From assembly GCF_019649055.1 (NCBI RefSeq), contig NW_026570292.1, forward strand, positions 248,001 to 312,000: a stretch of DNA of 64,000 nt, given 5' to 3'. This DNA is from Paramacrobiotus metropolitanus. Lineage: Eukaryota; Tardigrada; Eutardigrada; Parachela; Macrobiotidae. Shown piece by piece: positions 3,615-54,009 of the stretch (the first letter of the stretch is position 1; every line of letters begins with the position of its first letter). The position numbers and the translations under genes are program-made. The notes under the pieces were generated by a model that saw only the letters and a program-made list of their open reading frames with translations, ran no database searches and was not told the origin of the DNA.

Positions 3615-4664
3615 ATGCAGCACGTAAGTTTTCTCGTGTGCGGCATTGCTTTCACGAGTATCATCCAATGGACCATTCTGGAAGCGGTGTTATTTCCACA
3701 TCCTCCGCCAAAACATCATAAAAATTCGAAACTGCTTGCAGACGATGCATTTGACTTCCTGCTCTTTGTACAACGCTGGCCAGCATCAGTCTGTGTAAAT
3801 GGGCATTTCACCAGTGGAGTATGTGCGTTCCTCCTGGGTTATCTGCAACTGTAAGACAACGTTTTTTATCTTGGTTGTTAAACTTAAAGGATTCTGATTA
3901 TTAAGAGAGCTATAACTCATACTTACTCATACAATCGATTTAACTCATACTCATTGTTAGTTGAATTCCAGTTGGGTTCTGCTGTTGGTTGTTTTTGGAA
4001 ATGCGGTACTACAAAACAAAACTGTTCTCGAGTTGTGCATTTTTAAGCCATTGTTGTGGGTTAGGATTGGATAATACATGGCCTATGGCCGTCCAAATTC
4101 AATTCCAGCGGTCTAGAGCACTGCCGTACCATCCCCTTTAACCCTGATCCCTTGCAACCGCTCCTCAACGACCTCAACGCCTTTTGGCCTAGTCTGACCG
4201 CTACGAAACGACCGGACAAATTTTGGGGTCACGAATGGAAGATGCACGGCACCTGCGCCCAGAGCCTAGCTTCTTTGACTGGCGAACTGAACTACTTCCA
4301 CCGCTCCCTGGAGTTGCGGGCGCAGTATAATCTGTACAACGTTCTCCAGGGGCAGAGTATCGTGCCAAGTTCCAATAGGACCTATACCCATGACGATGTG
4401 GCCGGAGCCTTACAGCGACAGTACAATAAGCGGATTGGTGTTTATTGCTCGTATAGTAACGTTACAAGCCAGCACTACTTTGCGGAAGTAAGAGTTTGTC
4501 TGCAGAAAGATTTATCCTTGATGGACTGCCCGGATTACGTCACGCATACCGAAGAAGCATCATCGTGTCCGAAAAGGAAGCCGGTGCTGTACCCTGTCTT
4601 CTCTCCCAGTTCGTTTTTCGAAATACCTGTGCACCAAAAAGGACGTAGCAACAAAAAAGGATAG
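3615..4664 (+). CDS. Secreted RNase T2
   Basis: Acid endoribonuclease of the T2 family, which cleaves single-stranded RNA via 2',3'-cyclic phosphates, usually in lysosomes or outside the cell. Two exons are inferred: 3615-3818 and 4065-4664, phase 0, with donor GGA/GTATGT and acceptor TTAG/GATTGG; 267 residues. A hydrophobic signal sequence (about 1-25) precedes the family start motif (FDFLLFVQRWPASVC). The first residues of exon 2 give catalytic site CAS I (WIIHGLWP), and CAS II (HEWKMHGTC) follows about 55 residues later. Both active-site histidines and the CAS II glutamate and lysine are present, so it should be active. Spacing between the motifs is as usual for the family. The reading frame is closed just upstream of WIIHGLWP, so the intron is required. 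Confidence 0.92.
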
Positions 4665-8781: not shown

Positions 8782-9756
8782 CTAACTGGGCGTGAGCATT
8801 CCCCGAAGGTCTTTTAACGCAACAATAAACAGCAGAGGATCCAGCGCTGACTGGCATGCGAACAGTACGTAACAGATCTGGAATGCCAGGTTGTTGTCGA
8901 TGCTCGTATACAACTTGATGGTAAAATAAACCCTTCCCGGTGTCCATGTAAAAAAAATCGAAGCCGTCAATAGCGCAAATATCAGCATTCCTTTGGACCG
9001 TTTCTGTTCCTTGTTTTCGGTGGAAGCTGCATTGACACTGTCCGCGTGATGCATATTGCGGTTCTCCGTCGCAGTTCGCGATGGCCTCTTCTCGTTCCCC
9101 CCAGCATCAGTCGGTAGTAATCGAGAGTGGACTAACCGTTTATGTCGCATTTGCTTGATAATTACATAAGGGAACGATGCCAGAATAAACGGGGTGGGTA
9201 AAACATACAGAACCCAGTGCATCGTCATCGCCCACACCGCTTGGGCTGCATTATTAACCTGACAGCCAAAAGATTCCACCGGTTTGCGGTAATACAGAGC
9301 ATCCGTAATAATCCCGGGCAGGATCAGTAAATGAATCCACATCCATGAAACCAGGCAAATGCCCAACGCGACGCATTTTGTATGCTTGTGGCGGTAATGA
9401 ACGGGAAAGGTCACAGCCCAGATACGATTGACGGCGATTAGGACGTGCGTGAGCATGATGACACCCCCCAGTACATAGTTGGCATAAATATATAAATTAC
9501 AGACTTTCCATCCCATCCACCAACCGGAATACAGTGCTTCCAGAATATCCAGGGGATTCTGAAAAACGACTAGAAGGAGATTAGCGATGAGCAGGTTGAC
9601 TAGGTAAATATTGAATGCTGTTCGGAGATGAGGTCGGAGCAGCAGTTGTATGAGCACCGGCGTGTTGGTCAGCAGGACCGCGATTAAGATGGTCGTGGCG
9701 AATATTGGGACGAATGTCCACTGTGCTGCTACCGGAATCTTGGTATCGTTAACCAT
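8782..9756 (-). CDS. Rhodopsin-like GPCR, paralogue 3
   Basis: Single-exon seven-transmembrane receptor, 324 residues, starting at the ATG at 9756 just before TM1. It has the TM3 cysteine in WWMGWKVC, NRIW in place of DRY, TWTPG in TM6 and DPLLF in TM7. The extracellular loop 2 cysteine (FGCQVN) and a long polar third intracellular loop are present. It is most similar to the gene at 5862-7318. No frameshift or stop is present, so it looks intact. The ligand class cannot be told from sequence alone. Confidence 0.9.
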   Translation of the reverse strand: MVNDTKIPVAAQWTFVPIFATTILIAVLLTNTPVLIQLLLRPHLRTAFNIYLVNLLIANLLLVVFQNPLDILEALYSGWWMGWKVCNLYIYANYVLGGVIMLTHVLIAVNRIWAVTFPVHYRHKHTKCVALGICLVSWMWIHLLILPGIITDALYYRKPVESFGCQVNNAAQAVWAMTMHWVLYVLPTPFILASFPYVIIKQMRHKRLVHSRLLPTDAGGNEKRPSRTATENRNMHHADSVNAASTENKEQKRSKGMLIFALLTASIFFTWTPGRVYFTIKLYTSIDNNLAFQICYVLFACQSALDPLLFIVALKDLRGMLTPS

Positions 9757-11199
9757 GGTCTGCTTTTTGATTCGTGATCGTCGGATGCCACTGAAAAAGA
9801 CAGATGTGAAAAGGGGAAGTTTCTGAGAAGGAAAGCGGACACCAAAATCGGTTTAGCTCCAGACTGTTTCTGTGCACTGTTGATACCGGTACGGCGGTAC
9901 CGCTTAGTTGCATGATTACTCCCCCTCTTTCACATTTACAAAGGCCACCACCATATGCTAATTAAAAATTCTCCTCGAAGGAACTTGTGGGTTATATACA
10001 ATGCAGTGTTATGATCACCGAATAATAAAACTGCAGGGCTGTAAACGATGCCACTAACGGGCACTTAACCGATCATCCGAACCTTCCATGCACAGTGTAC
10101 CATCACAATGTCCCCATTTTAATGGTAAAATCGTAGGTGTAAGTTTACTCAGCAGTTGATTTATATTCGTATCCGTATTCCGCATCTTCCAATGCACTTT
10201 GCACTACATGCAGTTATACATTATTACAACATTATTATACATTATTATTATACATTATTACAAGTAAATATCCGTGCAGCAGCTAAAAACAATGTCGAAT
10301 TAGCAATAATAATACATCTATTAGGATCCGCAATATCGCTTGTACCAGGAGCGAACGTTGTTCGATTTGGCACAGCGTGGACTATTAGAAATTTATTGTT
10401 GTAATTTTACGATAACTTATTCAGCTGTGTACCGCCTTCGCACTTGATTAATTGTGTTTAGTTTCACCGATTCATAACTGAACAACTCGCCAGACACCCC
10501 CACACGGATCCCTCGCGAATTATGGTAAATGTTGTTAATTTTTGATATGCACCAATTAATCAAGCGGATGCAGAACTTCTAGTGATTATCTGGTTACATC
10601 GTAGAAAGAGAGCAAGTGGGGGCTGGGACCGTGCTCCCATGAAAGTGCATGACATCCGGGATAAAATTTGCGAAGGCGTACGTAGCAGCACTGCCCAGGA
10701 GACATTATATACATTATATACATTATATACTTATATACATATACATTATATACTTCGTTCAGACATTATATACTTCAGACTTCAGACATTATATACTTCA
10801 CTGAAGTACTGAAAATGTATTGCTTGAAAAGTAATATTATTCTCTGAATAATTTCGATATCCGTATTTTGATTCCTAAGAAAAAAAAAACTTAATAAGAG
10901 TAGCATACCGTCAAAATACGGAGCTACAGCCCTACAGGTACATCCATCTTATCCTTGATTCCATCATCTGAACTGCTACTAAAATGCAAGATTCGACCAT
11001 TTTTTAATTATTTCACAAATTATGCATCTCGCATATCTCGGCTGTGTATTGACCATCCAAACATAAAACTTTTTATTAACGATAACAATAATTACGGATT
11101 TCATGCGTTGCTACAGAGTGCCGGTACGGATTGATAAGAAAGCGTTGCTTACAGTTACAGTAGATAATGCTCTATCAAGTCCAACGGATGCGTGCACGT
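9757..11199. other. Intergenic with simple repeats
   Basis: AT-rich, with ACATTATTA-type repeats near 10216-10262 and ATTATATAC repeats near 10703-10800. No coding exon recognised. Confidence 0.5.
10703..10800. repeat. Microsatellite (ACATTATAT)n
   Basis: Consecutive copies of ACATTATAT, then shorter variants separated by TTCGTTCAG and CTTCAG. A related ACATTATTA array lies at 10216-10262. Confidence 0.8.
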
Positions 11200-19274: not shown

Positions 19275-20081
19275 GGCGCTACACAGCACTATTGACCGTC
19301 GCAGATACCGCGGTACTTGACCTTAGCATTGAAAAGCCCTTTGTTAGCAGCTGCCGATGTACAGATGTCACAGCTGGCATTCTCTTCCCCGACAAACACC
19401 TAGCCCAATAACTCCAAAGTGTGCAATCGAAGTGGTATTTAATATAGGACATCTTTTGTCCGCACCGACGCATCGTTGACAACAACACCAACGGAAACTG
19501 TATTTTTGTGCTGCAGCCATTGTTCGCTTGGTACAATGGTAAGGTAAAATTCAATTATGTAATTTTATGTTCAAGGATCATTCCGACTAACCTTTTAATA
19601 ATTAACGTTGCACATGATTTGCATCTGATACCTTTATGGTTTCTACAACGCCGTCACGTGGAGCTTTATTCCTGTTATGGCATGGTACTCATTATGACGC
19701 TCTCGACAAAACCGTGTGTCACACCACATGATTATAATGTACAATTTCTCGATATGCGATGTGAACATGCTTCGTTACATCTTTTATGAACTTCCATAGA
19801 TTATTCAATTTCATATGAATGCCCTTGTGGTCCCTACCGGCGCTCTGCTGTATGCGGCATCGTGTTTCTACGACAATATACTCGTACTTTATAAATGGGA
19901 TTATCCAATTCAAAGTCACTCACATTGTACACCAATATTACACGCCTTTGCACGACGCTGACGCTGAAAATTCACCTGTTACAAAGAGTCTGTCCAGGTT
20001 GAATGTCTTGAGTCCGTTCGACCTCAGTCACACGCTTGCTCGCTAAATTCGTCAAGTCAACTCAAAAATCTTCGATTTTTG
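19275..20081. other. Intergenic, nothing recognised
   Basis: Upstream region of the forward GPCR. Open frames here show no family features. Confidence 0.4.
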
Positions 20082-21044
20082 ATGGAGAACAACGTGACCA
20101 ACCAATCTTTGCGCGAAATCGCCGTAGTCTGGTCAGTAAGTCCAATTTTTACACTAATAATGGAAATTCTAGTTATAGTTTTGAACGGTGCTTTGCTGAT
20201 TATCTTGACCACGTCATATTCGCTTCGTATCTCGACATTCCACGTCTACGTCGTTAACGTCACCTTGGCCAACTTTTTACATGCCATTCTCGTTGACCCG
20301 TTCAGCATTATCACCGACATTCACGGCGGAGTCTGGATCTTTTCGTACGCTGTTTGCTCCTTCTACCAGTTTTCCTTATGGATCCTGAGTGCCGCCATGC
20401 AGAACGCGCACGCCCTCATTACACTGAACCGGCTGTGGGCCATTATATTTCCTATACATTACCGGCAAACTCACCGCCGAACCACCGCTGTACTCCTATG
20501 TATTGGAATGTGGATTTGCATTCTGATTATTCTCTTACCAGGCATGATTCCCGATGCAACGTACTACCGGCTGCTAATGGACAGAGACGTGTGCCGGGTC
20601 AACAGCGCCGGTCAAGTGGACTGGTCAATCACCAGTCATTTTCTCGCTTACGGTTTGGCGGAGTTTATTATTGTCATTGCCTATCCGTTTATTGTTTACG
20701 CTCACTGTCGGCGGAAGAAAACGACCGGCACGAGTGCACCCACAACGCGAGCGCTGCCATCGGCAACGGCAGCCGGACAGCTTCCATCGCAAAATAAAAC
20801 TCGCTCTTCGAAACGGCTGCATATTTTGACTTTATTGACCGTGTCGGTGTTCATCTGCTGGACACCCGGCTCGGTTGTGTATTCGATTCTCCCGTTCAGG
20901 AATATTGATATACCGTTATTTGCGGATTTGTTGTTTGCCTTTCAAGCCGCACTGGACCCGGTTTTGTTTATGGTCACCCTGCCAGAGCTGCGGCAGTCTG
21001 CACGGCGTCTGTGTTGCAGAGGGAGCGTGCATCCAGGCGCATAG
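20082..21044 (+). CDS. Rhodopsin-like GPCR, paralogue 4 (diverged)
   Basis: Single-exon seven-transmembrane receptor of 320 residues on the opposite strand from the other three. The ATG at 20082 gives a short N-terminus with two glycosylation sites (NVT, NQS). It keeps the extracellular-loop cysteine pair (TM3 AVCSFY; loop 2 DVCRVN). DRY is NRLW, the TM6 motif is CWTPG, which keeps the CWxP cysteine and tryptophan, and TM7 has DPVLF in place of NPxxY. It is clearly related to the cluster at 0.5-10 kb but more diverged, with Ser/Thr-rich intracellular loop 3. It looks intact. Confidence 0.9.
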   Translation: MENNVTNQSLREIAVVWSVSPIFTLIMEILVIVLNGALLIILTTSYSLRISTFHVYVVNVTLANFLHAILVDPFSIITDIHGGVWIFSYAVCSFYQFSLWILSAAMQNAHALITLNRLWAIIFPIHYRQTHRRTTAVLLCIGMWICILIILLPGMIPDATYYRLLMDRDVCRVNSAGQVDWSITSHFLAYGLAEFIIVIAYPFIVYAHCRRKKTTGTSAPTTRALPSATAAGQLPSQNKTRSSKRLHILTLLTVSVFICWTPGSVVYSILPFRNIDIPLFADLLFAFQAALDPVLFMVTLPELRQSARRLCCRGSVHPGA

Positions 21045-24383: not shown

Positions 24384-27300
24384 TTAATGAACTACTTGTC
24401 CGACGTCGGTATAAACTGTATTAACAACCACGCTTGGAGAAGTCTGGATCTGATGGTCCGAAGGTATATTACTCTCGCAGCGCGACAGGACATGGTAAAG
24501 ACCATTCTGCATAGCAAGTAGATCGGCACACAGGCACTGAAAGTCCGGACGCATCTTCGGCTCGATATGCCAGCAGGCACACATCAGACTGTACCTGCGC
24601 AAAATAGAAATTAATGGATAAAAAAATTGTATCAATGAAATTTTAGCTTTAATACCAATAATAAAGCCGACATCGAAATTGATGCTACTGAGTCTTAACG
24701 ACATACTGCTTATGATTTCCATTTGAAACTAAACGGCGTGGAGTGATTCCATTAGGTATGGATCGTTTACGTAAAATTTCAACTAGTTTTCGTGTTTCTT
24801 TCCTTATTTTGTACAATAAGTATGATTTGACCGATAAAGTTAAACAAGTTAAATCTGTCACAAACTCTTCTGGCTTACAGTTCAGGCGGACAAATCGCTG
24901 GTTGAGCCAATCGGCAGCCTTTATCAAGCAACTCCAGGACGGTCAAAATATCCAAGTTTCCGTAAGGATGTTCTCCACGCTCTAAGAGTTCCCAAATTAC
25001 GATTCCAAAGCTCCACTGTAAACATAATTACCAAATGCAGATGGTGCTATGCGCTATACATGCTGTTTTAGCAAAGAAAACAGCAGTTTAATTACCACAT
25101 CACATTCTGTAGAGTAATCACGGTAAGCGCATTCCGGCGCTAACCAATGATACGCCAGGCGAGTCTTTGAATTTGGATCGAAATATAAATTTTGCTCGTA
25201 GAGGTCACGAGAGTGTCCGAAATCCGAAATGCGGACGTCGAGGTTTTCGTCAAGCCTACAGCACAAATCTTGTAAATAAGCGGGCCACAGTGGCATTATG
25301 GCTGTTCTTTTTTCCAGCTGCAACCTACAAGCAGTTTCTTGCGGCGAGATCTCGGTGCAGAATTCTTTGACCAGACAGGTACGCCATCCCGTCGGCGATC
25401 TGAGCAGAGAATTTTAGGACATCTCTTAAGGAGACATCCTGCAACATGAACAGACAATTACTACCAAGCATTTTTTGTGCTAGTTAATTCAATTTCTTGG
25501 TACTAACATGTTTCTTAACATAAGAATGCAAATCGCCGTTACTCATAAACGGCATGACCAGTCCTGGTTGGTTAAGTACTCCATCGGACGAGTAGAGACA
25601 AACGCCGTACAGCATCACGATGTTTTTATGGCTGAGGTTTGTCATGATTAGTCCTTCCTCCATTAGTTTCTTCGTGCTACTTTGGGCCATTTCTGGGGTA
25701 CAGTCTACACGAGATTCGAATGACAAGTTACAAACTAATCCGTTTTGTCGGCCACAAGATCCGTGATATTACCGGGGAGCCTCGATCTACAGCCTTTTTG
25801 AGACAACGTTTAAGTCTAGCGGTAGTAAGAGGAAATGCAGCTGCTGTTCTGGGTACACTTAACGCACGTTCTAAACTCATGAAAGACTCTAATAATTTTG
25901 GCTGTTTTTTCAGTGTTTAAAATTTGAAACTTTTTATTAGAGTAAACCCGCGCAAGCGCATTATTATATGAGTTACATACTACTTCCTAGGAAAATGTCT
26001 GAGAGCTAATAAAAATAAGGTTTCAGCACCAGTTACAGAAGCCTTCAAGCCCTTACGTACTACTAGTAGTATCACTTGCTGGTTCTTTCCCCAAAAACTA
26101 CTGGGGTCCGGGTGTCACTAAGTGTATCTTCGGACATTTAAATGGAGTAAATAGGTTGTACTCTGTTAAGTACGTACCGTAAATCGTTTTAACAGCAACG
26201 CGCATGTTCGGTGCACATATCCTGGCCAACCACGACCCCGATCTCCCTCGCAGCACGCCCTCGTAAACAGTTCCAAAGTTTCCCTGACCCAGTACGCGGG
26301 TACACCGTAATCTCTTCGGGTGGATAATCAACTTGTCCGCTTTATATTCGTCATAAAGTGTCTTAGGCATCAGTGAAGCCATTTCGGTTGCTGCAGCTTC
26401 CGCTGCAATAGTTTTTCTGGAGCGATGCAGAAGAAGACCGGCAAGTACCGCTGCAGCAGTTACAGCAGCAAAGCCGCCAAAGGCCAAGAGGATTATTATA
26501 ACAGTTCGACTGTTTTGTGCAGCTGAGTGGTTGGGGTTGTTCAGTAACAGTGGAATGACTGGCAGAGTAAAGTTGACTAGTCCTAGCTGCACCGAAGAAT
26601 TAAGGCCTGCTGTAAACTAAAAACAGCACTTTTGCATATACATGTACCATTATATCTATAGTATTAGTCTAAATGACAAATGTTTGGACTTTTTGGGTCT
26701 TACCAAAACAATGGCAGAGCCCTTATCCGTCACCTCTGATGTGGAGCTAATTCGACATTCCAATGCATCCTCGTGCAGTTTGCTGACAGGACATTCGTTT
26801 CCATCAATGGTTATTCGGTAGTCTTTTTCCGTTAAAACTGTATTCAAATGTTTGCCCTACCGCAGAAATCAACTAACATCATTAGCTATAGCCGAATCCT
26901 AGGTAGTACATCTAGCAGTCATTTCGAGCTCCACAAAATTTTGTTTAATACCAGTAGTCAAAACTTTACTCTCCAGTCTCCACTTACACAAACTCTGATT
27001 ATAAACTGTCCACCTTGTCGAGTGCTGTACTCAGCATTTTGCTCGCCCTCCCATGGTGTGACCAGTGGATCGGGTATAATCTGGAGTTGGTATTTTCTGT
27101 ATTCAAAAACAGGAACTGATATTTTCTCTAATTCGTTTCCGACTAAGGTGACGGATGCATTAAGTATATTATCGATGCCTCCGATTTCCGCTTTCATGGA
27201 GACAGCGGGACACTGAATTTCTGTTGCTTGATGGATAGGCAAACAATCCTGTAAGCCGAAAACAGGTTTTCTGGAATCCAAGTTCATGGCAAAAAAATGG

Positions 27301-33357: not shown

Positions 33358-34302
33358 TCATGCATGGGTAAGATAATATTCCAAATAGAACCAAGCATCA
33401 CCAGTCCCATTAAAATATGCTACAGAAGTCAAAAGCTGAAAATTTTCCGGAAATTTCATTATCACGGCATTAACAATATTTTGATCTTTTCCGGCGTTTA
33501 ATCCTTGCGCAAAAAAATACGCTTGCATGCTGAAGTATTCGCGAATGAAAATTCCCCAGGCCTTTTCATGGCCGGCCATTAGGCCTGCTGCCGAATGATC
33601 GGTGCGTCCTTCGCGAAGACTGATAGACAGCGATCCGTTCTCATAAACCCGATCGCGGTTGGTATTAAATGGATGCAAAATCGCCAGAGCGATTTTATTC
33701 TGATCCGGTAGTTTCCGTCGCAATACATCTGGATCAGGAAACTGTATTAAATGCGGTACGAATTCCGCTTTACGAAATGCCCCAATGTCGCACCACACGA
33801 AATACTCCGAACGAAATACGTTTTCTTTGATAGCCTGTTCGACAAACCGCCACTTCTGATTCCAGATGATGTACAGTTCCGGCGTATGATACTTCTCGTA
33901 ATCGGTACTTTTTATTCTTCTCCAGTGATGCATCTTAGAGTACTCTTCCAGTTCTTCAAATCCCTTGATGATAAACCGGGTGCTATTCAGATGCTTCATT
34001 CGCATGGTTTTCAGCGTCGGATACATGGCAGAACTGGTAAAGATGTATAAATAGCAAGGTATATTCGGGAGGAAGTTCTCAATCCACCTGAGATAGTTGG
34101 CATGGGGTCGTTTCGAAGGAATCTGGTAATAAGCTGTCACAACCGTCACAAAGCCGGTACTGTAGTTTTGATTAGGAATAAAGTCAGCGTTTGACAAATT
34201 TTTTATTGTTTGTACTGGAGATGGTGTAGCAGCACAATTAACCACATCGAGAAATCGCGAAACACTGGTGAAGAACAAGATTGTAGCTAGTACTGGCGGC
34301 AT
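33358..34302 (-). CDS. HtrL/YibB-like putative glycosyltransferase, paralogue 1
   Basis: Single exon, 314 residues from the ATG at 34302, chosen because it starts just before a membrane anchor (MPPVLATILFF). The lumenal part resembles the HtrL/YibB family, whose function is not well defined but which is thought to be glycosyltransferase-like. Visible family features are TVVTAYYQIPSKR, the W-IENFL-IPCYLYIFT segment, the conserved IIWNQKWRFV, the acidic motif WCDIGAFR, and a C-terminal AGLMAGHEKAWGIF segment. Several NxS/T sites fit the secretory pathway. It is paralogous to 49963-50952 with the same motifs in order. Upstream in-frame codons to 34365 lack an ATG. Confidence 0.8.
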   Translation of the reverse strand: MPPVLATILFFTSVSRFLDVVNCAATPSPVQTIKNLSNADFIPNQNYSTGFVTVVTAYYQIPSKRPHANYLRWIENFLPNIPCYLYIFTSSAMYPTLKTMRMKHLNSTRFIIKGFEELEEYSKMHHWRRIKSTDYEKYHTPELYIIWNQKWRFVEQAIKENVFRSEYFVWCDIGAFRKAEFVPHLIQFPDPDVLRRKLPDQNKIALAILHPFNTNRDRVYENGSLSISLREGRTDHSAAGLMAGHEKAWGIFIREYFSMQAYFFAQGLNAGKDQNIVNAVIMKFPENFQLLTSVAYFNGTGDAWFYLEYYLTHA

Positions 34303-35042
34303 TGCTAAAACAAAATAATTGGATCGGTCCTTTGGAAGATCAATGTGAAATGGAAACCGCTGCACCGCACCCTCCCACGCCAGATTGAGAAATATACTAA
34401 CTCGCTAATTCTAGGCTGCGTTCAAGCGGAAGCGTACTGGTTACACTCGGATAAATATCAGTACTTAATTCTCAGCAACAGCACTGATTATTTATTGCCG
34501 GAATTTTATTAGTGTGATGACACTTCGTACATTATTCTGATTGCACAGCAGTTACAGACTTGCATGCCAGTTAGTCAGGCTTTATAAACGGCTTCTTAAG
34601 GCAGCGATCGTCTCATTAGTACTCCTTTTATTGTAGATTTCCACAGGACAATTATTTAGCTGCGCTTTGATCACCGCGCTGATTAGGAACCTGCAGTATA
34701 GTATTGTGTATCATGATCATTGACCACAATCCACAGATCAGCGGAAGCAGTTCACGCAGTACACGATCATAATAATTACCTATGACTTATGAGCAAAGGT
34801 ATAGTAATCAAGCTGTAACAGAGTTATAACGTTAATTCTATCAGCGCAACATGGGCTCGTGCCGCCCGTTCGCTGCTACTGATATACTATTATGAGTACG
34901 CAATTTAAAAAAATACCAAAATTTCTCCTGTCGCAAACTGTTGGACCGCGAGATCGATAAAAGACACTTAGTTAGCACTTTGTTAATTAGCTGATTTTTT
35001 TTATTTAGCTTATGTCTTTTATTGTGCCCGGAAAGCCCGCTG
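34303..35042. other. Intergenic, nothing recognised
   Basis: Promoter side of the HtrL-like gene and 3' side of the next reverse-strand gene. No repeat or exon recognised. Confidence 0.4.
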
Positions 35043-37192: not shown

Positions 37193-39700
37193 TCATAACA
37201 GAAACACTTCCTCAATGCTATCCTGATCGGGAATTGTACCCATTACACAAATCGCATTCCCCCGTTGTATCTGGATAGAGAGCCGCTGTCTAAAAAACTT
37301 TCGCACGCTTCTGGCCTGTGGCGGTGGCCATACCGCTTCCAACCTTATCCACAAGCCTTTTTGTTCCATCTCCCCACGGTCCGTAAATTTCGAATGCTGC
37401 CGCCATGAAGTTATACCGTGGCTGCAGCCAGCTGTGTTTCGTCAGTTTCGCTCTTTCGGCATGTTCAGCTGCGGCCCCGGCATTCATTGAGGTGCGATCG
37501 ATATAAGAGGCTGCAAGTGTGTCCACGCAAGTCACGTCGACGGCCAGCGGCTTTCCGCGTTCCCATGGTACGAGTGTGATCACATCCGGCCTTTTGCGAT
37601 CCTTCGCTGAAAGACCTTTCGGCTCCATTCTGGCTGGGAAACCGGCTGTCTTTAGTCATCGGGTGAGCTCCCCACTGATACCGTCGTGTCGTGGCAGCCG
37701 TCCGGCAGATCGTTTGCAGCGGAGTCCGTGCCGGCCTAATTCGTCAACCGATCCACCGCACACGCACACGTGCGGGGATACAATTGGTGCACCCAAACGC
37801 AACGCCACGCTGATTCGGAGAGCGTTATTTTCCAGCAGATTACCGAGGCTTGCTGCGGGCAGTGCATGGATCCATACGCCGGATTCCGGGACCGAAACAG
37901 CCTTCAGGTGAGCGACCTCATCCTTTGTGGTGCGCAATGAGGTCAGCCTAGAAAATGCGTGTAGCGTCGTAGGCGTGTCCCAGGCCTTCTGAACGTGTCG
38001 CAGTGCTTCCGCCGGGAGATCGGCTGTGTTGGCGATAACCTTCCAGGCACGAGTGGCTACGGTTACATCCGTTGGCTTAAGCGTCGGACACAGCTTGGAG
38101 ATCAGTGGGTGCAACGAGGAAGCCGATGCCAGATAAGCAGAGGGAGCTAGCTTCTCGGTGCGTCTGATCCCCAAACCGTCCAGACGAACGGGAAAGGATG
38201 CCTGGAGCCACGTCGGATAGTCCATCCGTACGTTAGTGATGGATTCTATTGCGTCGCGGAACACCTGATCCAGTCTGTACAACTCGCTGGGAAACATCCA
38301 GGCGGGAGAGGTGCGTAAAATATGCACTATTTTCGGGACTCCTAAGCAGTTCTTCAACAAGAACAACGCATGGTGCTTAGGAATCAGCTGTAAGCGGCCG
38401 CACATGATCTCCAGCTGCCTGATCTTTTCGTCGATCGTCGGGATTACGGCGGCTGGTAGAAGCGGGGATCCGAGGAGTGTAAGTTTATCTGCTGATACAA
38501 TGGCAATACCAGGGAACAGACTGGTGAAGTCGCTGGCGGCCGTTGCTCTTTCTGCTTCAGTACCACCACACAAAAACACTTCGCATTTTGCGATGTTAAC
38601 AGTCAGGCCAATCTTCGCAGCTTCTAATATTAGTTGTTGGAAAATGCTGATCACTTTCACTGGTTTATCTTCCAGTGTCCCATCATCCATATACCAGGCG
38701 TTCAAATCGGCATCCAATATGTCAACGACACACTGCAGTACCAAACAAAATAAGGCTGGGCCGAGTGGATCTCCTTGCTGAACGCCAGACTGAGAGGAAA
38801 TTACTGTATCTCCCAAAAACAACAAAGAATATGACCGTAACACATTTTAATGAAGGGATAATACTCTGGAATAACTTCAGCCGATATCTTTAATACTTCC
38901 TCGCGTGAGATGCAATTGAAAGCGTTGGTGAAGTCGATTTTGAGTAGGACTTTAACGTCATCACTGTACTGGAGGAGAAAGTCTCTTGCAGCGTGGATGA
39001 TGCCTTCGACGCCCCTCTTTACACCTGACCCAAGCTGATGCGGTTGGAGGAACTCCGATGTAATTGGCCGGATGCGGATATCCACCGCCTTAGCAGCAAT
39101 GCGGCGATACACATTCCCAACAGCAATCGGGCGCAGTCCTCCGTCTTTTTTGCGTAGTGCGACGAGCCGGGCGCCACAAAGCAGGGGGACTATATCAGAA
39201 GGAATTTTGCCCGTTAGTAGGAGATTCAACAAGTCTGTAAGTGAATCACACAGGTCAGACGCAGCGTCATTCATTCTTGCACCGATCAGGTCCAACAGAT
39301 GCTGCGGACGCAGAAAATCAAGGCCACCTGCACTACCACGTGGCATGCTCTCCAAAACTGACAGGACTTCCGCGGGAGTGAGCGGGACAAATGTCATGGC
39401 CGGAGGATCGTTGGGGCAGTGGGTAATGGGGCTGCTGGGTGTTTGCGCTGCATGCTTTCTATCACCTCTGGGGTTGGGTTGGCTACAGAATCCGACGAAA
39501 GGAGAGTGCGTACGGCCCCGCTGACGTTGAAGTCGTCGATCTGCATGCCAACGCGACGGGGAATCTCGTCCTCGGGGGTAGCGCGCCGATGGTTCTTTGG
39601 GGCGACGGGCTCTTCACTATCGAGCTCTCCGCTTTCGAATTTAGCGATCCGATCACGGATATAGGAGGTGAGGATGTTTTGTGAAGAGCACAGGACGGTG
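37193..39700 (-). mobile_element. Decayed R2-type non-LTR retrotransposon
   Basis: Reverse-strand reverse transcriptase gene broken by at least four frameshifts (near 39395, 38840, 37656 and 37295). It includes the RT core with GVQQGDPLGPALFC and the active-site YMDD (AWYMDDGTL). Then follow a CCHC motif (VCVCGGSVDELGRHGLRC) and a PD-(D/E)xK-like segment (KRPDVITLVPWERGKPLAVD), the layout of R2-clade elements with a restriction-like endonuclease. The frame resumes to a stop at 37193 after FFRQRLSIQIQRGNA. The 5' part (39400-39700) encodes a charged region that ends in a frameshift. Not functional. A short piece of a related copy sits at 25744-25866. Confidence 0.85.
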
Positions 39701-39939: not shown

Positions 39940-41134
39940 TTACAGTACAGTGTGCCTAGGATCTGCTGCTGGTAATGCGCGTAAATTAACCACGTCTGCC
40001 AAATGGGCTATAGTGACATTCATCTTTGGAAACTCCTTGGTGTTCGGAAATCCTAAGGTCAGGCGGGCTTGACCATCCAAATGCCAGGTGGCAAAAGTCG
40101 TCGAATTCCAGCTGGTCCAGCGCAGTTGAAGCGTGTGATAATCAGCCGACAAGTCATCACCACTGTAAACATGCCATGTACTGTAATGAGGATGCTTCGA
40201 TACGCTCTGCGTTATTATACACTGTGCAAGTGTGCGCACACTTGCACAGTGTATAATAAAATACCCTCGCACTTCGGACACCAGAGATACGTCGACCAAA
40301 AATATTGATAAGCTTATAAATCTCGAGTGCAAGCTCGGATGACGACACTAACAATTATCATTTATTTCATTTAAAAACACTTTAACTTTTAAACTTTTTG
40401 TCCATTTGGAGCAACATTGAAAATTTTATTTGGTGTCCAGAATGCGAAGATACTGTATATTGTGCAAATGTCGAGAATGCCAAAAACATCGAAGTACGAT
40501 ATTTTGAATAATAATAAAGTTGCTGGCGCGGTAAAACTTTTTAACAATTAAGCGCGGTTACACCTCTTATTTGCAGCAAAGCAACTGTACTGCACTGCAA
40601 CTTACCTCAAATAACGTGCACTAGCGTTACGCTCGTAATCTGCATTGTCCTGAAAATCTGCATTAGCGTAAAGGACGGATTTGCCTAGAAGAATTTTGGA
40701 ATATTCCAGGTTCACACTGGTCTTAAAACAGCCGCTCGCTGTTACCGGGCATTTATTCGCTAAATGTATATAAAAAAAGAAGAATGGACTACGAGGAAAC
40801 CGTAATCGTGTGCTCAGTTCGGTGCCGGGACGAAAACTGAATGCTTTCACCGTTTCTATAATGGCGCCTGTAAGGTGCATTTGCGCAGATCCTCTGACAG
40901 CGGCATCCAGTACCAACGTTCATTCTGACGAACGTCCACATTTGCACCACTAACATAATGCGAATAATCAGTCAAATTTGGAGAAAGCTCTTGGTTAAGG
41001 ACGGTCCACTTTTAGGTATTTAGGCGAAGTCCTCTAAACTCCTCGCGAAAAACCTCATCTTTCGATGGACGTGCAGCAGTAAACACTAAACGTAGCAGAA
41101 AAATGGCACAGTTACACCGAAGAACTCGCATCAT
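39940..41134 (-). pseudogene. GH16-like secreted protein, broken copy 1
   Basis: Homologous to the intact gene at 47510-48700. Exon 1 (41134-40606) starts with a signal-like sequence (CAIFLLRLVFTA) and the domain start (EVFREEFRG), but has an in-frame TAA at 41012-41014 and a frameshift near 40917 (NVDVRQNE to LVLDAAV). The exon 1 donor (TTGAG/GTAAGT) and exon 2 acceptor (TTTACAG/T) keep the family phase. Exon 2 (40162-39940) encodes DDLSADYHTLQLRW and a shortened end. The intron holds a 48-bp perfect palindrome. Two independent disruptions make this a pseudogene unless the assembly is wrong. Confidence 0.8.
40212..40259. repeat. Perfect 48-bp palindrome
   Basis: Arms of 24 bp (TTATTATACACTGTGCAAGT, then GTGC) meet at GC with no spacer, in the intron of the GH16-like pseudogene. 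Confidence 0.9.
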
Positions 41135-43855: not shown

Positions 43856-46800
43856 TCAGGCACTGCCGTCCGTCTTGATAGCGGGCTCACAAATGTCTGT
43901 ACTTTCCCTTAACAGAACGTGATATTCTTCGTTAAACAGGGTATATGGGTCATCCAATGGCAGGTAGTCTTCTTCTGATCTAACGGAAGAAATATGGCGC
44001 AGACTCTCCGAGAGTTGGGCGAAGGTGGGTCGTTCTCCGGATGTCAAGCTCCAACAACGACACGCCAGATCGTAACTAAATATAACCTGACAGATATGTT
44101 TCGGATAATTAACCTATCGCGCCGTTACATTTAAAATTTTAAAATACGAAGCGGAGAGTGCTTATTATTATTCTAATTAGACTACTAGTTTGGACACTTA
44201 CATAACAGGCGGGCATGCTTCTGGTTTTTCTAAACGTAATCCACCGTTCAGGAAAGATGGAAAATCGGATATATTACGAGCAGTCACAGTGCCGCCATAT
44301 GGTACGGCTCCTAGGCTGAAGATCTCCCAAACTACCACTCCGAATGACCACACATCCGATTTCTCGGAAAACATCCGGTTGATCATGGCTTCCGGTGGCA
44401 TCCAGCGCAGCGGCAGTTCTTCCTGCATTAACCGGTTAACCGGTGTCATTTGTTGCCCAGATTTTTGCTATATGTGTGCTATGTTACAGTTCAGTCTAAC
44501 ACCTCTGGATCAAAGTGGGAAAGTGGTGCGCCTTTTTTTGCCATTCCAAAATCTGAAACTTTGGTGATTAGCCCCTCACAGATCAAAACATTCCGCGCTG
44601 CCAAGTCCCGATGAACAATGGATCTCTTGCTCAAATATTCCATTCCTCTGCTGATTTGGTAAGCAAAGTTGAGCTGCACGCCACTGGACAAATGCTGACC
44701 GTTTCCGTGCTGTTCTTCATTCGCCGACTGATGGGTTTCAAACGGAACTCCCAACGTCCGCGCGTCGCCAAGATGGATCTCCTCATCCAGATGCCGGTAA
44801 GATTTTAAAAACATCAGTAGTGATCCAAACTGCGCGTACTCCATCAGTAAAAGTAATTTTCCTGAAAGCAGGAATGTAAAGTATAGGCCGATGTTCTCAA
44901 ATTTGTACTTTCTGCATTTAGCCATTAAATACGTATGTGACATAACATGTATCTGTACAGATACACCGAACTGTAGAATACAGAAGCACCTTTCACTACT
45001 ATCCCAAGAAGATTTATAATATTCAAATGGCGCCCGGCATGTGCCATAACCTCAATTTCCTGTGTAAGTTGACGGATCTGGCGCGGATCGTGAGCGTTTC
45101 TAATGGTTTTAACTGCAACTTCCATGGTGGCGAATTTTCCATGCAGATCCCTGGCCAGGCCTTTGCACACCACACCAGTTTTGCCCTGACCCAGAATTTC
45201 GTTGGCTAAAAAAGGTTATAACGTTGGGAGCTTATAGGATGATTGCGAGGTCACGCGCTAAGAATAAAGCATAAAAGGAGATCTAAATGAATGCTTGCGC
45301 TAATAGTGCCCCTCTTTATTGGTCAAATCAAATGCAGTGCACAAATTATTAGAAAAGACACGCAAAATACAACAGAAAAATTTCGTTTAGTTTGTGCTAA
45401 TAATGACAGTAGTTGCTAGTGCTACAAACTGCACCGCATAAAGAACAGAACTAAAGAACAGAATAAATAACCAGGGTCTACACTAGAGTATTCAGATAAG
45501 TATTGTAGTTCTGAATCTTGTGATATGTAAAATAAGTTAAGGAAAAAGACGAATTTGGGAAGACTTACTGATATGGACATGGGCTAATGGGACTTCCAAA
45601 AGATTAACGTACTTTTCTAGTTCCACGGGATAATCAAGGCAAAATGATCCCGTCTGAATGCCACCTAAATTGCCCGTTAGACAGAAACTGCCATGAAATC
45701 GGTTGACCGACGGTTTCATTTTATCTCGACGTAGCAACCGTTTCCTGTTCTTGACTATCCCGCATACTATTAACGCTACCGCAGATATCGGGATTACAAC
45801 ACCTAAGGCTATCCATAACGCATGTTCCCCAACACCATTCATTTCATCCACACTCATGAGCAATCTAGGAGCTCTGGGCTTGCACGTGGAATTGCACACG
45901 GCAATGTAGTCAAAGGACCACTCGTCTTTTGGTTCTGCCTGTATGTCCCTGTGGTAGCTTGCCATCATATCGTCTTCAGGATACGCCAGTGGATTAGGTG
46001 CCAGCGTCAGATAGATCCGCAGTGCAGGGAACCCTTTGAAATTCGGCAGCTCCAAGTGCATAATGAGGTCATCGTTTAATAGCCAGCTGATGGAATTCCA
46101 GTTTAGCCAAACCAGTCTGAGTGTGTGATAGTCTCGCGACAAATCTAGAGAACTAGCCGTAACTGTTAGTGCAATGTACAGTTGCTGTTTTATATAATGA
46201 AATCCGTAGCAAATCAAGCAGATACATCTGGGATTACTACCCGAGCAGGTGCGGCTTGAACTGTGCACACGCTGAGCTGCATTTGTGCTGTTAATTCTAG
46301 TTAAGGTGATATGTAATAACTTGATTGCACAAGGTCGAAACGTACCTGACATTCATGGCACTTACGGTATGGCTACCGTTTGCATTGTCCAAATAATACA
46401 CGGACGCTCTCAAAACCGATTGGTTCTGGCTATTTTTGAAATGTTGAAGATCGATCATTTGTTGTCCCGCGTCCTGCAGGCAGCTTGCTGTGGTGCAGAC
46501 AATGATTGGCCCGAGCATTATGGTCGAGAACACGTATCGGACACGCGGAAATTTACACCGCAGGGCTAATTCGGTTTTAGAGCGGTAACGGACAGTGGGA
46601 ATAGTTGCTATAGCGGCACCGCTGAGGATAAACCGGGAAGCGTCGAGTTGGTTTGAAGTGATCAGGTGCAGACCTCGATTATCAACATGTACGTTTTCTC
46701 GTGATATCAGCCTTGTAGCGTTGTCCATGAATGGTTCGAATTCCCCATGAGAAACAACCCATTTCTCGGCTCCGAGTGGTAGTCCATCGAAGTTATCGCG

Positions 46801-46893
46801 GAAGAAGTCGCTATCACTGGCGCACAACGAGACGCCAATCAAAATTAGTAAGCATGTAATCCTAATAAGCCAAAGTTTTCGGCACGCCTGCAT
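43856..46893 (-). CDS. Receptor tyrosine kinase with GH16-like ectodomain
   Basis: Type I membrane kinase, 730 residues. Six exons keep phase: 46893-46346, 46152-45569, 45205-44990, 44861-44503, 44467-44202, 44075-43856. A signal peptide ([18 protein letters not shown]) precedes a GH16/laminarinase-like jelly roll (about 30-270): [44 protein letters not shown], and final strand SFDYIAVCN. At the catalytic position the ExDxxE motif reads MIDLQH, so both glutamates are missing and the domain is probably a lectin. A membrane segment (about 293-315) follows. The kinase has [23 protein letters not shown] and PPEA, so it should be active. The activation loop has no tyrosine. The tail has EDYLPL, DPYTLF and EEYHVLL. 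The 35-bp intron (44502-44468) is unusually short but required by a stop. Confidence 0.87.
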
Positions 46894-47509: not shown

Positions 47510-48700
47510 CTATTCTTTCCCTACATAGAAAACTGATACGATCACAAACGCTAGGTGCACAAGCCACCAATCGGGAAATGCCAGTTTTGCGCAGCTAGAT
47601 AATATTATGCAAGTGGAATTTCTCACGACAATGTGATCCACGTGAAATTCATTATTCTCTGGGCGCAAAAATTCAGTAAGATTCGATGCTGAAATTTGGT
47701 CAGAATGAGCCGGTTGTGGCAACGCCATCAGAATGAGGTGCAGTTTTGGGAACATTCTGGCTTGGGAAAACGAAAGGTTCAGAAAAAGGTTTCCATCCAA
47801 GCTCCACGTGAGACCGAGACTTGTCCGCAGAAGCTGCAGGGTGTGATAACCAGCCGACAAATCTTTGGCGCTGCAATACAACGCCGTGGTTAAGCCAAGC
47901 CAATTTTTGTATCATAGCGCCACACCTGCTCTAGTAATAAGCAGTTGCAATTATTTCTGCGCATTGTGTTGTTATAGGCTTGGCATCCTTAAAAAACCCG
48001 CAACCCTTTTTTGGCAGGAAGTTGTTAAGCTGCTGAGATGTCGGTAGACCCGGATTTAGCTTTTCATACACTAAACCTCCACGAAAATTGTGTAAACTGT
48101 TAACATTACAGTAACTTTCAGTAGTATTACAGATACATACATCGGGCATTCAGACAAAGGCTGTGAAGTGATGCTGCGCAGAATCTGTAGTTACGAGTAC
48201 TTTACATGCTGATGCGCTAAATCATAATACCTCTCGTAGGTTGCAGTGGAATTTTGGCTCTTGTTGGATATGTCCAGATAGTCCGCTGATGCCAGGAACT
48301 GCCATTGAATAAGTGCAATCCTTTCAATACGAAGGTAAACCTTGGTTGTTTGGCTTTCGGCCAGCGTTACGCTTGCGACGGTAAATGGGCTACGAGGAAG
48401 TCTCACGTTTAAGGTCACTTCAAGGCCTGGTTGGAAATCGATATTCTCAGCCGCGTATACGGACGCACCAGTAAGACGGGACGCAGCGTCTAATTTGACC
48501 GAAGTATTTAAAACAAGTTCATTATTATTAAGTTGCACATTTTCCATAGCAAGATGGACCGAAGTCATTGGTAGGGTGGCACCAAGGACTGTCCACTTGC
48601 CAGCCTCAAGAACCCGTCCATTGAAATCTTCCCGGAATATTTCGCTGCTACAGCCTGTTACCGTACAGATGCAGAACAACAGTACAAAGAACACCAGCAT
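47510..48700 (-). CDS. GH16-like membrane-anchored protein, no kinase
   Basis: Two exons: 48700-48231 and 47870-47510, joined in phase 2 at the same place as in the neighbouring kinase gene; 276 residues. A signal peptide (MLVFFVLLFCICTVTG) precedes a GH16-like domain: FREDFNG-EAGKWTV, NVQLNNNELVL, RLPRSPFTVASV, KDLSAGYHTLQLL, LTWSLDGN, final strand FHVDHIVVRN. No ExDxxE motif is present (IERIALIQWQ occupies the region), so it should not be a hydrolase. A hydrophobic C-terminus (WWLVHLAFVIVSVFYV) could be a GPI signal or membrane segment. It matches the kinase ectodomain along its full length and may act as a decoy or co-receptor (inference). Confidence 0.83.
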
Positions 48701-49489: not shown

Positions 49490-49682
49490 TAGTACATATT
49501 ACTCTCTGGACGCAGAAATTCCCTCATATACTTCACGAACATAGTCAAGTTCATTCTAGGCCACGCTCTAGCAAGGGAGAATCGAAAGATCTGAAACGGG
49601 ATCTTCACCCGTAAACCACGTATGATTATCGCTCGTCTTCAGCAGCCGAAGCGCGTGGTATTCCGTCGCTAAATCCTTACAT
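49490..49682 (-). pseudogene. GH16-like gene, exon 2 remnant
   Basis: After a family-type acceptor (ATATTGCAG/A) the frame reads KDLATEYHALRLLKTS and TWF, then a frameshift leads to FSLARAWPRMNLTMF and EFLRPESN, matching exon 2 of the gene at 47510-48700. Internal parts are deleted, stops occur, and no exon 1 is found upstream. Confidence 0.8.
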
Positions 49683-49962
49683 CTGCAATATCGCTCTGAA
49701 TTCTAGAGTAGTGTTCGAAGTTTTGTTCGAACATATTTGCATGCCAGTTGCGGCTTCGATCCAGCATTGCAATTGTTCCAGAAAAGCAAACCATTAATTT
49801 TGTTAATGTGCTCGGCCTTCTGACAAAATCATTTTATGAAAATTGTCGCATTGTCGCGTTTTGTGACATTACTACACTTTTGCTGCAACCATTAAAGTTT
49901 TTTTAATTTTGATATCTCTCAGGTTTTTCATAGGATCCAAGTGGTTAACAATATTGTTTCAA

Positions 49963-50952
49963 CTAGCTGAAATAATACTGCAGATAAAACCAAGGATTGC
50001 CAGTGCCGTTAAAGTACGATTCGGGCCGGACAAGCTGAACATTGTTCCACGACCGCACGACCACCGCATTCATGAGGTTCTGCTCTTTCCCGCCGTTCAA
50101 GCCCAGCTTGAAAAACAGCACCTGCATATTGTAATAATTGCGAATCCAAATTGCCCACGCTTCTTTGTGTCCGGCGACAATCCCCCCACCCACATGATCG
50201 GCAAAAGTATTCCCATTCCGTAAGGTCAGCCAAAAGGACCCATTCCCTCTCTCGTCTTCGTTATACGGACTCATCAAGTTAAAGGTCAGCTTGGAATGAT
50301 CCTGTAATTTATTCCGCACGACGTCGACATTCGGAAAAGTTTTTAGTAAATGCGCTAAATTTGTGTCTCGAAACGATCCAATATCGCACCATAGAAAATA
50401 CTCCGAATTGAAGGCATTTTCTTCGATGGCCTCCTGTACGAACCGCCACTTTTGATTCCACACCACGTAGACTTCCGGTGTGTGGTACCATTCCGGATCA
50501 ATGGATTTGATGTAATTCCATTTGTCCATTTTCGCATATTCCGCTAACTCATCGAATTCTCTTACAATGAATCTGCTCCGATCGGTATAATTACTCCGCA
50601 TATGTCTCAATTTCGGATACATATTTCTTGTTGTATAAATGTATAAATGGCAAGGAATAATCGAGAGGAAGTTGTTAATCCATTCTAAATATTCCGAGTG
50701 ATTGTGCTTCGAAGGAACCGGATAATAAGCCGTTACAACGGTCACGATATTCGATGTATAATTCGGTTTGTCGGAGAGAATTTTGAAATGGATGGTTTCT
50801 CTGTTTTCCGGGACAGAATATCTCCAAAACGATTCCGTATTAATTAAAATAAACGCGCTGGAAACCGCTGTGATAATAATGATCATAACCGCAATATTCC
50901 TATATGAAATTATTTCTGGGCAAATTTTTGTTTTTGCGTAGCGCATACTCAT
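49963..50952 (-). CDS. HtrL/YibB-like putative glycosyltransferase, paralogue 2
   Basis: Single exon, 329 residues from the ATG at 50952 (a second ATG lies at 50946). A membrane anchor (NIAVMIIIITAVSSAFILI) near the N-terminus suggests a type II Golgi protein. Family motifs: TVVTAYYPVPSKH, EWINNFLSIIPCHLYIYT, VVWNQKWRFVQEAI, WCDIGSFR and GGIVAGHKEAWAIW, in the same order as in 33358-34302. The C-terminus (YFNGTGNPWFYLQYY) is strongly conserved between the two copies. The biochemical reaction is unknown; the acidic WCDIG site could bind a metal and nucleotide sugar (inference). Confidence 0.82.
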   Translation of the reverse strand: MSMRYAKTKICPEIISYRNIAVMIIIITAVSSAFILINTESFWRYSVPENRETIHFKILSDKPNYTSNIVTVVTAYYPVPSKHNHSEYLEWINNFLSIIPCHLYIYTTRNMYPKLRHMRSNYTDRSRFIVREFDELAEYAKMDKWNYIKSIDPEWYHTPEVYVVWNQKWRFVQEAIEENAFNSEYFLWCDIGSFRDTNLAHLLKTFPNVDVVRNKLQDHSKLTFNLMSPYNEDERGNGSFWLTLRNGNTFADHVGGGIVAGHKEAWAIWIRNYYNMQVLFFKLGLNGGKEQNLMNAVVVRSWNNVQLVRPESYFNGTGNPWFYLQYYFS

Positions 50953-52284
50953 GGTAACAGGAAACACAAACACAAAGAAAACTTAATCTATATTAGCGCA
51001 CATCCATTTTTGAAAAACGGACGGAAACAAACTACCTTGGTGTCTTTACGATCGATTGCAGTGTGATTGTTCTTCTTAACCGGATGCGCGCAGAGCTGCC
51101 GTATCGGTACTCTTATTACATATTTAATGTGCTAGACAGACCGCCTGTTAGTACGTTGACCGGTGTGATCGTTCTTTGTCGGGAAAATGGTTATACTAGA
51201 TATCCAGCCGGAACGAGTTACGTAATTACAGGTATCGCATGTTTGTGTTTGTTTGTTGCGGTATGGAAGTGTAATGCTTCGATCGCAATTAAGGACAATG
51301 CGAATGACAAATTACAAGATCGTTTATTATGATATTAGTATTATCGTTTATTGATACCCAACTTTTGATTGAATGACATACTCTGTAGTACGTACATAAA
51401 TGATAAACGAACACGGAAACGCGTCATTCTAGCATAACATACTTACTACAGAACTTTAAGGGCTTTCTTGCAGTGTACTTTTGCATATAGAATGATCTAA
51501 CTGTACATGTATTGTTCCTGTATGTGATTTTTATTTTAGTTTTAGGTAGTTTTCTTGAGTACGTATGTATATCTGTACTGATAATACCAAAAATGTTTAC
51601 GTAAATTAGGGTTGCACACTGTACAGATATTGATGCAGCATCAATAATAAAACGAAAAAACTAGAAGCCAGCAACATTCAAGTTTTCGCTAACAAAGGTC
51701 ACCAAAGATACAAGCATACTTGTTGATTATTGTTCTTACTGGCTATTGATTACAGGTTTTGATGTACACCACATGAATAACTTCCGGCTGACACTAACCG
51801 ACAACTGCTTTTACAGCAAAAATGTGCGATGGTGTGTGTACTCGTATTACGAAGATGCAGAGTGCACTGCATATAATATTATATTGATATGAGTACAAAT
51901 ACTGCTGCTTACGATCAACATACGGAAGTTATATACAATTAACTACGAAAAATTTCTTGTCCATAATTTTGATATGGCTTATTGATCCAGACGCCGATAA
52001 TAAATCAATGATTTACTCAACCTAAGAATTAACTTGTCGAGACTTTCCAATCTTTTTCAGTACCTGATAAACCGGAATACTGCGCTGGAAACGCTGCTGT
52101 GTGATTCTGTCCTGCGCATTTTCATGCGGGCAGTTGCTTTGTGGCTTCCGGCATCAATACTGCAATTCAATGTTCACCAGAATTCTCCACAACTTCGGAT
52201 AATACGTGATAACTGACAGATTGGTGTAAAATTTTGATTTGAGCTTTTCCATTTCTTGAACAAAAATAAATCAGTTTACTGGAA
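50953..52284. other. Divergent intergenic region
   Basis: About 1.3 kb between the starts of the HtrL-like and beta-1,4-galactosyltransferase genes. A forward 89-codon frame at 51063 shows no family features. No repeat noticed. Confidence 0.4.
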
Positions 52285-54009
52285 ATGTTTCGGGAAACTT
52301 GCCTACCGCTTGCGATCAGAATAATTCGTACAATAATTATTTGCGCTTTATTCTTCAGTGGCACATATTTATTGATAACGCTATCACCTCCCGGGAAAAA
52401 TAATGCAGAATTTATTGCGTCGGAATCTAACATTTTTCAGCAATTAGTTAAGCCGGACAATGACCGGATCAAGTTTTTTGACACTGTTCCCTCGATATCG
52501 TCCGACGGAAAAATATTGTGTGCAACATTTCCGCCAACTTTAATCGGTTGGCAGAATATGGCACCATTAATATTTCCCGCACCGGAAGGACACATTTCCT
52601 TCATGAATCCCCGTGTACGTTCCGGTGGGCAGTGCAAACCGGAAGACTGCCAAGCCAAACAGAAAGTGGCCATTATTGTGCCTTATCGCAATCGCACGGA
52701 CCACCTGTGTAAGTATTTTATTTAACATAAAAGTTGAATTTTCTTTTAAAACTCTCTCGTTTCTTGTGCCTGCTGGCATAAACGTGTTATAATAATTATA
52801 AAGACTATTTTGAAAAAAAGCAGATTACACATGCGTGAGCAAATGTGTGTGAAAAATAGGCTAACTGCATGGCTTCCAGCCCAATGCAAACCCGTTTATA
52901 CTGTAGAAAATTTTGGATGGGAATAAATTTTCGGTTTTTTGCTTGGTTAAAATCAAAAGGGTAAGGATCAGTTCATTTCCATAATAATCAGAGGATATAT
53001 ATGCCGGGTAAATCTCTGTGGAAAAAAAGGCACGGATTTCTAGGGCAATATAAACCCATGCATCGGTAACGAATTATGGTAGTGCGTATTTCGTATGTGC
53101 TTGTTATGTAAAGTCAAAATGGTAAAATCAAGTTTTTTTTTAATAATAAGAGATTTTGCATGTCGGTCTTTGTAGTTATCTTTCTGCGGAATATACATCC
53201 ATTTTTACAACGCCAGCAACAAGATTACAGAATATTCGTCGTAGAACAAAGCGGCCAGTTGCCATTTAACCGAGGTACTCGTATATATGATAATCACATC
53301 GAGTATGTATGTGATTTGGTTAATATTAGGTAACAGTTTAATAGAAAATGCTGTTTCGAATTCCTTAGGGAAGTTGTTGAATGCTGGTTTCGTTGAAGCA
53401 TGTAAACCCTCGGCGTTTGACTGCGTCGTATTCCATGATATTGATAGTCTACCGGAAAATGACCACAATTTTTATACCTGCACGCAGCAGCCGACGTTGT
53501 TAGCGGTGGCGGTTAGCAAGGAGAACTACAAACTGAAACACTGGAATTTCTTCAGCACTGCGATATCTATCAAACAGGAGCAGTTTTCCGCTGTCAACGG
53601 ATACCCAAATCTATATTGGGGGTGGGGTAAACACTGGCAAACGACGTTTCAGTTTAAATTTTTGTCATAAGCAATTCTTTCGTATCGTGTGTGTATAGGT
53701 TCGGAAGATGATGACCTTTCGGAACGTGTTCGCCACCGGTACGGCCGCATACTCCGCCGACCGAAGGATATCGGCCGTTACACGTCGGTGCAGCACAACG
53801 CTGACACGCTGAATCCGAAGAACGCGCTGAACTACCACATGGCGAAGAGTGCACTGCTGCGCGCCGGCGAAGATGGTCTGAACAGTCTCCGTTATCGCGT
53901 TCTAAGGAAAGAGGAACGGCCGTTGTATACGTGGATTCTCGTGGATATCGGGCAGCCACCACGACTGGTCCGTGTGGACGAAAATATTTTGGGATATCTC
54001 AAAGAGTGA
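52285..54009 (+). CDS. Beta-1,4-galactosyltransferase
   Basis: Golgi type II enzyme of family GT7, transferring galactose (or GalNAc) from the UDP-sugar to terminal GlcNAc or xylose; 376 residues. Exons 52285-52708, 53176-53274, 53330-53626 and 53699-54009 all join in phase 1. A membrane anchor (about 12-32) precedes a stem and the catalytic domain: VAIIVPYRNR, HPFLQRQQQDYRIFVVEQ, FNRGNSLIENAV, the metal-binding DID in FHDIDSLPENDHN, and YWGWGSEDDDL, which is split by the last intron. GLNSLRYRVL and PLYTWILVDI close the fold. All key motifs are intact. Which mammalian B4GALT type it matches best, and so its acceptor, cannot be set by eye. Confidence 0.92.

Follow-up and report, generated by a model that had tools for sequence, protein, structure and literature searches.

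Can the fold of a polysaccharide-cleaving enzyme serve as the outer part of an animal receptor tyrosine kinase (RTK)? The question is raised by a gene in a 64,000-nucleotide stretch of the genome of the tardigrade Paramacrobiotus metropolitanus (contig C72, positions 248001-312000, in an assembly of 169.8 Mb), which we call the window. The gene occupies 46893 to 43856 on the minus strand, and our chosen six-exon model encodes 715 amino acids (aa). Animal RTKs pair a kinase with varied ectodomains, and a polysaccharide-enzyme fold appears to be a new pairing. Based on sequence comparisons, we consider it quite probable that the gene encodes a type I RTK of a tardigrade family whose ligand-binding ectodomain is a laminarinase-type GH16 domain that no longer has its catalytic glutamates.

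The window protein fits an RTK by its kinase domain, predicted signal peptide, ectodomain, and single helix. The signal peptide and a single membrane helix are predicted from peaks of hydropathy at aa 3-30 and aa 290-319; further peaks fall at aa 121-139 (weaker, inside the GH16-like domain) and aa 438-456 (inside the kinase). The predicted ectodomain (aa 26-292) carries five N-glycosylation sequons and is followed by the helix (approximately aa 294-316), basic residues, the kinase (aa 379-668), and a tail to aa 715. The kinase matches the Pfam tyrosine kinase domain with an E-value of 3.6e-73 and has the catalytic lysine, HRD, and DFG; its sequence matches in the PDB are led by EGFR, FGFR4, and PDGFRA chains. 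The motif in its C-terminal tail, of the YLxLDEPYQxFN type, is common to relatives from both P. metropolitanus and Hypsibius exemplaris. The catalytic motifs, long insert, and tail motif suit predicted trans-phosphorylation and effector docking.

Enumeration of GT/AG pairs over the gene gave 10,780 stop-free models. A first-pass annotation, made from the letters of the window, had proposed a signal peptide, a GH16-like ectodomain, a membrane segment, and a tyrosine kinase on six in-phase exons with junctions 46346/46152 and 45569/45205. These coordinates and junctions are present among the enumerated models, and the frame is intact with acceptor 46152. All six top models used donor 46346 and the junction 45569/45205, while acceptor 46152 appeared at ranks 3 and 4 and acceptor 46116 at ranks 1 and 2. 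We used the rank 4 model, which is laid out as follows.

46346..46893, minus strand: exon 1, with the ATG at 46893, the signal peptide (approximately aa 1-25), and the initial two thirds of the GH16-like ectodomain, which breaks off in a split codon at aa 183, from the model, hydropathy, and homology
46144..46151, minus strand: alternative acceptor stretch; exon 2 of NCBI isoform X2 begins at 46144, with exon 1 out of frame
45569..46152, minus strand: exon 2, with the last third of the ectodomain, the membrane helix (approximately 45821-45753, aa 294-316), and the juxtamembrane segment, from the model and equal to P0001 from aa 186
44990..45205, minus strand: exon 3, kinase N lobe, with the P-loop GQGKTG (aa 383) and VAVK (aa 407)
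44503..44861, minus strand: exon 4, kinase, with the long insert, HRDLAARN (aa 533), and DFG
44202..44422, minus strand: exon 5, kinase C lobe, with PPEA (aa 578) and SDVWSFG
43856..44075, minus strand: exon 6, end of the kinase (the Pfam match stops near 44000), tail motif from aa 680, and stop

We chose acceptor 46152 because the intron of a tandem paralogue (48700-47510) has the same place and phase with an equivalent acceptor, because the residues it adds match SAKDLSAGYHTL in that paralogue and QDLSRDFHIYKL in the relative P0002, because the NCBI protein P0001 contains DLSRDYHTL and is identical to the model from aa 186 onward, and because GH16 homology continues across the exon 1/2 junction. 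P0001 ("PDGFR alpha-like isoform X2," 532 aa) is identical to exons 2-6 over 530 residues, acceptor 44422 included. The NCBI model has exons 1-6 in one mRNA, yet the P0001 isoform is not the full receptor frame; we infer the full-length isoform from the intact frame, the paralogue, and homology. The close spacing of acceptors 46152 and 46144, of which the downstream one would lead to truncated products, is a possible splice switch.

Profile comparisons indicate that the window ectodomain is homologous to GH16. It scored 68.6 bits against a tardigrade GH16 profile (which includes an enzyme fragment, C84, C9_586, and both C136 and P0005) and 27.7 bits against a bacterial one, where the maxima over 400 shuffles were 7.4 and 10.9 bits, respectively; a chance look-alike was rejected on these shuffles. 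The corresponding hhalign values were 99.4% and 97.2%. The predicted fold of the close relative P0002 is a GH16-type jelly roll. In alignment, the enzyme motif EIDVME reads MIDLQH in the window protein and AVSVID in P0002. The proposed loss of both catalytic glutamates was thus borne out, and an active GH16 enzyme was rejected on the loss of the E-x-D-x-x-E motif. Both glutamates are lost in 16 of the 17 distinct receptor-type rows. For the window's paralogue, two alignments disagree at the catalytic site, and neither glutamate is kept in either. P0002 retains the stretches WPALWM, WPP, and NVAVGGNFPG, which we take to line the sugar cleft.

The window gene is one of many. Pfam PF00722 marked 40 GH16 places in the genome, and a kinase scan that scored 120 of 1,557 candidates gave 172 matches, from which 131 distinct kinase places entered the pairing count. 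Of the 40 GH16 places, 23 are followed within 4 kb by a kinase place on their own strand (at 21 distinct kinase places; 0.06 expected by chance), and no other order or orientation of the two occurred within 4 kb among these 40 and 131 places. Our own profiles added six kinase genes with an upstream GH16-like domain, five on C98 and one on C130. With the 21 loci found by Pfam and the window gene, the family totals at least 28 loci; full gene models were built for the window gene and L004, and the other loci are defined by domain matches. The minus-strand gene of L012 fell under the length limit of the own-profile search. The remaining 17 GH16 places had no listed kinase place nearby, and one of them is a secreted enzyme on C25. 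Bacterial contamination was rejected, since the genes have introns and animal-type kinases and sit on long contigs belonging to this assembly.

Among the matches listed (120 of 744), the proteins with both Pfam domains were P0002, P0003, P0005, and P0008 of P. metropolitanus and P0007 and P0012 of H. exemplaris, species from different superfamilies within the order Parachela. NCBI labels family members "FGFR4-like" or "PDGFR alpha-like," names that hide the family from name searches. The window protein shares the family's features: a GH16-type ectodomain, a juxtamembrane LLExP segment, a kinase in the clade, and the YLxLDxPYxxFN tail. Of the relatives on C98, three carry HFG in the DFG position, and another has HRN and lacks DFG; by their motifs, these four are probable pseudokinases, which the family therefore seems to contain.

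L011 2821-4130, C98: GH16 receptor with altered kinase motif
L012 7249-8453, C98: GH16 receptor with altered kinase motif
L013 5664-7067, plus strand, C98: GH16 receptor with altered kinase motif
L013 near 437-1764, minus strand, C98: GH16 receptor with altered kinase motif

One further NCBI protein, P0004 (515 aa), has two GH16-like segments, a membrane helix, and the juxtamembrane sequence ALEIPHSSLEI, and then ends; it is either a relative without a kinase or a gene model cut short.

We built trees of both domains. The GH16 tree was rooted by 21 bacterial sequences, with only tardigrade rows among animals and C136 omitted as equal to P0005. Its 17 receptor-type rows form one clade (97/95), which adjoins a secreted tardigrade GH16 at C25:1201190-1202302 (L039, L036). 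Three of the rows (C84, C9_586, and the window's paralogue) were classed as receptor-type on sequence and have no kinase place nearby, and both window rows sit on very long branches. The C25 protein has an intact EIDVME and a signal peptide, stops after the GH16 domain, and has no kinase place within 4 kb downstream; approximately 27 kb away on the same contig is a group of six GH16 places with two kinase places beside it. The likeliest origin of the receptor ectodomain is a tardigrade lineage of GH16 enzymes, of which the C25 gene is a candidate representative on the enzyme side.

In the kinase tree, the window kinase (entered as the spliced model) falls among the GH16 receptors, in a 7-row set with support of 100/99 and a 10-row set with 97/97; its nearest identity is 46%, to P0008. 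The GH16 label requires two changes on this tree, and none of 500 shuffles was that low. One of the changes is at L013_165, which was counted among the 18 "other" rows solely since its upstream part falls outside the examined stretch; L025_274 and L026_8874, also among these rows, are apparently one gene in two overlapping stretches. The tree omits L008, L015, and L016 (copies of other stretches), as well as L003 and L004 (represented by P0003 and P0002). There may have been more than one GH16-kinase fusion, since H. exemplaris P0007 and the C130 pair lack firm tree support.

Several results weigh against the receptor reading of the window gene. Splice consensus alone places acceptor 46116 above 46152, and P0001, the only NCBI isoform seen, takes acceptor 46144, 8 nt downstream of 46152, with loss of the exon 1 frame. 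The first-pass annotation, whose interpretation was supported in part, had proposed a profile search and a structure prediction as checks. Pfam GH16 alone stayed under its cut-off (E 0.12 with the whole protein, 0.021 with the ectodomain), whereas the scores against the tardigrade and bacterial GH16 profiles were above their shuffles. The jelly roll was predicted for P0002, but exon 1 of the window gene folded alone reached a pLDDT of 61.1 and a best structural match of E 0.12, which is not significant, with beta-glucanases or agarases in rows 1-12. A phmmer search of the window ectodomain against the PDB returned only two meaningless matches (E 0.52 and 1.7), and a search of 5.8 billion proteins (710 candidates) returned its own NCBI record only. 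The relative C74 lacks the first glutamate but has one aligned at the second site, next to a one-residue gap. WPALWM, WPP, and NVAVGGNFPG are replaced in the window's copy, and the window kinase has no activation-loop tyrosine.

The splicing evidence allows the gene to be, mainly, something other than a full receptor. From the first ATG, acceptor 46144 leads to a stop after 207 aa, and P0001 instead starts at ATG 46352; the dominant transcript could therefore give either a secreted 207-aa ectodomain or a 532-aa protein that lacks a signal peptide and keeps half the ectodomain, as a splice-regulated or decaying copy. The acceptor of isoform X2 and the decay of neighbouring ectodomain copies speak for this, but with acceptor 46152 the frame of all six exons and the catalytic motifs are intact, the intact paralogue uses the equivalent acceptor, and the label "isoform X2" presupposes at least one more isoform. 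We regard this alternative as unlikely. A wrong joining of a GH16-like gene to a kinase gene is improbable in the extreme. The kinase-less tandem paralogue does show that the ectodomain also occurs alone, but exon 2 holds the ectodomain end, membrane helix, and juxtamembrane segment together, the NCBI model links exons 2-6, relatives have GH16, helix, and kinase start in a single open frame, and 23 of 40 GH16 places lie 5' of a kinase; we rejected it on these grounds.

If the gene is a GH16-type RTK, ordinary RTK logic suggests how it would work. A ligand on the pseudo-enzyme domain would dimerise or rearrange the receptor, the intact kinase would then phosphorylate in trans, and effectors would dock on the conserved tyrosines of the C-terminus (YLxLDxPYxxFN). 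For the relatives that keep the cleft, beta-glucan or a related polysaccharide is the likeliest ligand, whereas for the window's copy, where the cleft residues are lost, a different glycan or a protein would be about as likely a ligand. It is a serious possibility, if short of an even chance, that the receptor binds a protein or the animal's own glycoprotein, with the jelly roll as a mere scaffold whose sugar binding was lost along with catalysis. The replaced cleft agrees with this, as does the GH16-tree branch of the window's copy, among the longest at 2.49, as in a domain freed from old constraint; the cleft residues retained by P0002-type relatives argue the other way. More tentatively, eutardigrades may have made a beta-glucanase into a diversified repertoire of pseudo-enzyme RTKs that couple microbial, algal, or fungal polysaccharides directly to tyrosine phosphorylation. 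In this animal system, glycan sensing for food or immunity would be wired straight to RTKs, members without a kinase would act as decoys or co-receptors, and pseudokinases would act as partners.

Compared with known systems, the GH16-type RTK resembles PDGFR/KIT/CSF1R, FGFR, and VEGFR in its kinase domain, single membrane helix, juxtamembrane segment, long kinase insert, and tyrosine tail, and Foldseek groups the P0002 kinase with VEGFR2, KIT, and FGFR. Those receptors have Ig-domain ectodomains, whereas the window receptor has a GH16-type one. Unlike laminarinase-type GH16 enzymes (e.g. Thermotoga maritima, 3azz/3azx), it lacks EIDxxE and the cleft residues and is joined to a helix and kinase. 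The secreted C25 protein is the nearest enzyme-type relative found in the genome, branching just outside the receptors, and differs by its intact motif and lack of a kinase. Insect beta-glucan recognition proteins (GNBPs) use a non-catalytic GH16-type domain for recognition and are soluble, with an N-terminal glucan-binding CBM39. The window receptor would share with them a non-catalytic GH16-type domain for recognition; it differs in its membrane helix and kinase and in having no Pfam match to CBM39.

We know of no RTK with a GH16 ectodomain elsewhere. The family joins a kind of ectodomain apparently unreported for RTKs to an otherwise ordinary RTK plan, is present in many copies, and has apparently not been described before. 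A catalytically intact secreted relative and dead receptor versions in one genome make the enzyme-to-receptor path traceable. The cleft-keeping members are predicted to bind beta-glucans. No GH16-type RTK was found in the portions of the open-access literature covered, and the terms glyco-, hydrolase, lectin, and concanavalin were absent from the main text, as far as it was accessible, of a holozoan tyrosine kinome study (PMC8662651).

Other copies of the ectodomain surround the receptor gene.

47510..48700 (exons 48700-48231 and 47870-47510), minus strand: tandem paralogue without kinase, 276 aa, with signal peptide, GH16-like domain, and hydrophobic C-terminus
39985..41134, minus strand: decayed ectodomain paralogue, with a stop and a frameshift
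49492..49699, minus strand: fragment of another ectodomain copy, weak (profile E 0.008, tblastn E 1.7e-4)

The tandem paralogue shares 29% identity with the window ectodomain over 267 columns (E 5e-25), and as a protein query against 744 candidates it had no match at E-values up to 10. The decayed paralogue is adjoined by open frames (37656-39613, minus) of a non-LTR-type reverse transcriptase, with PF00078 at 27.2 bits, just under the cut-off. The array is flanked on either side by similar single-frame proteins with an HtrL_YibB domain, a bacterial-derived name (33358-34404 and 49963-50982, both minus; E 1.5e-9 and 1.2e-5). A second tyrosine kinase gene (24884-26616, minus) has a membrane-helix-like stretch ahead of its P-loop and no GH16 match nearby. 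Elsewhere in the window are a single-frame rhodopsin-type GPCR (552-1592, minus; 8.8e-24), which the frames 6629-7450, 8782-9852, and 19968-21044 resemble by eye, a single-frame ribonuclease T2 (4065-4664, plus; 5.8e-42), and a galactosyltransferase piece (53245-53670, plus; 4.9e-14).
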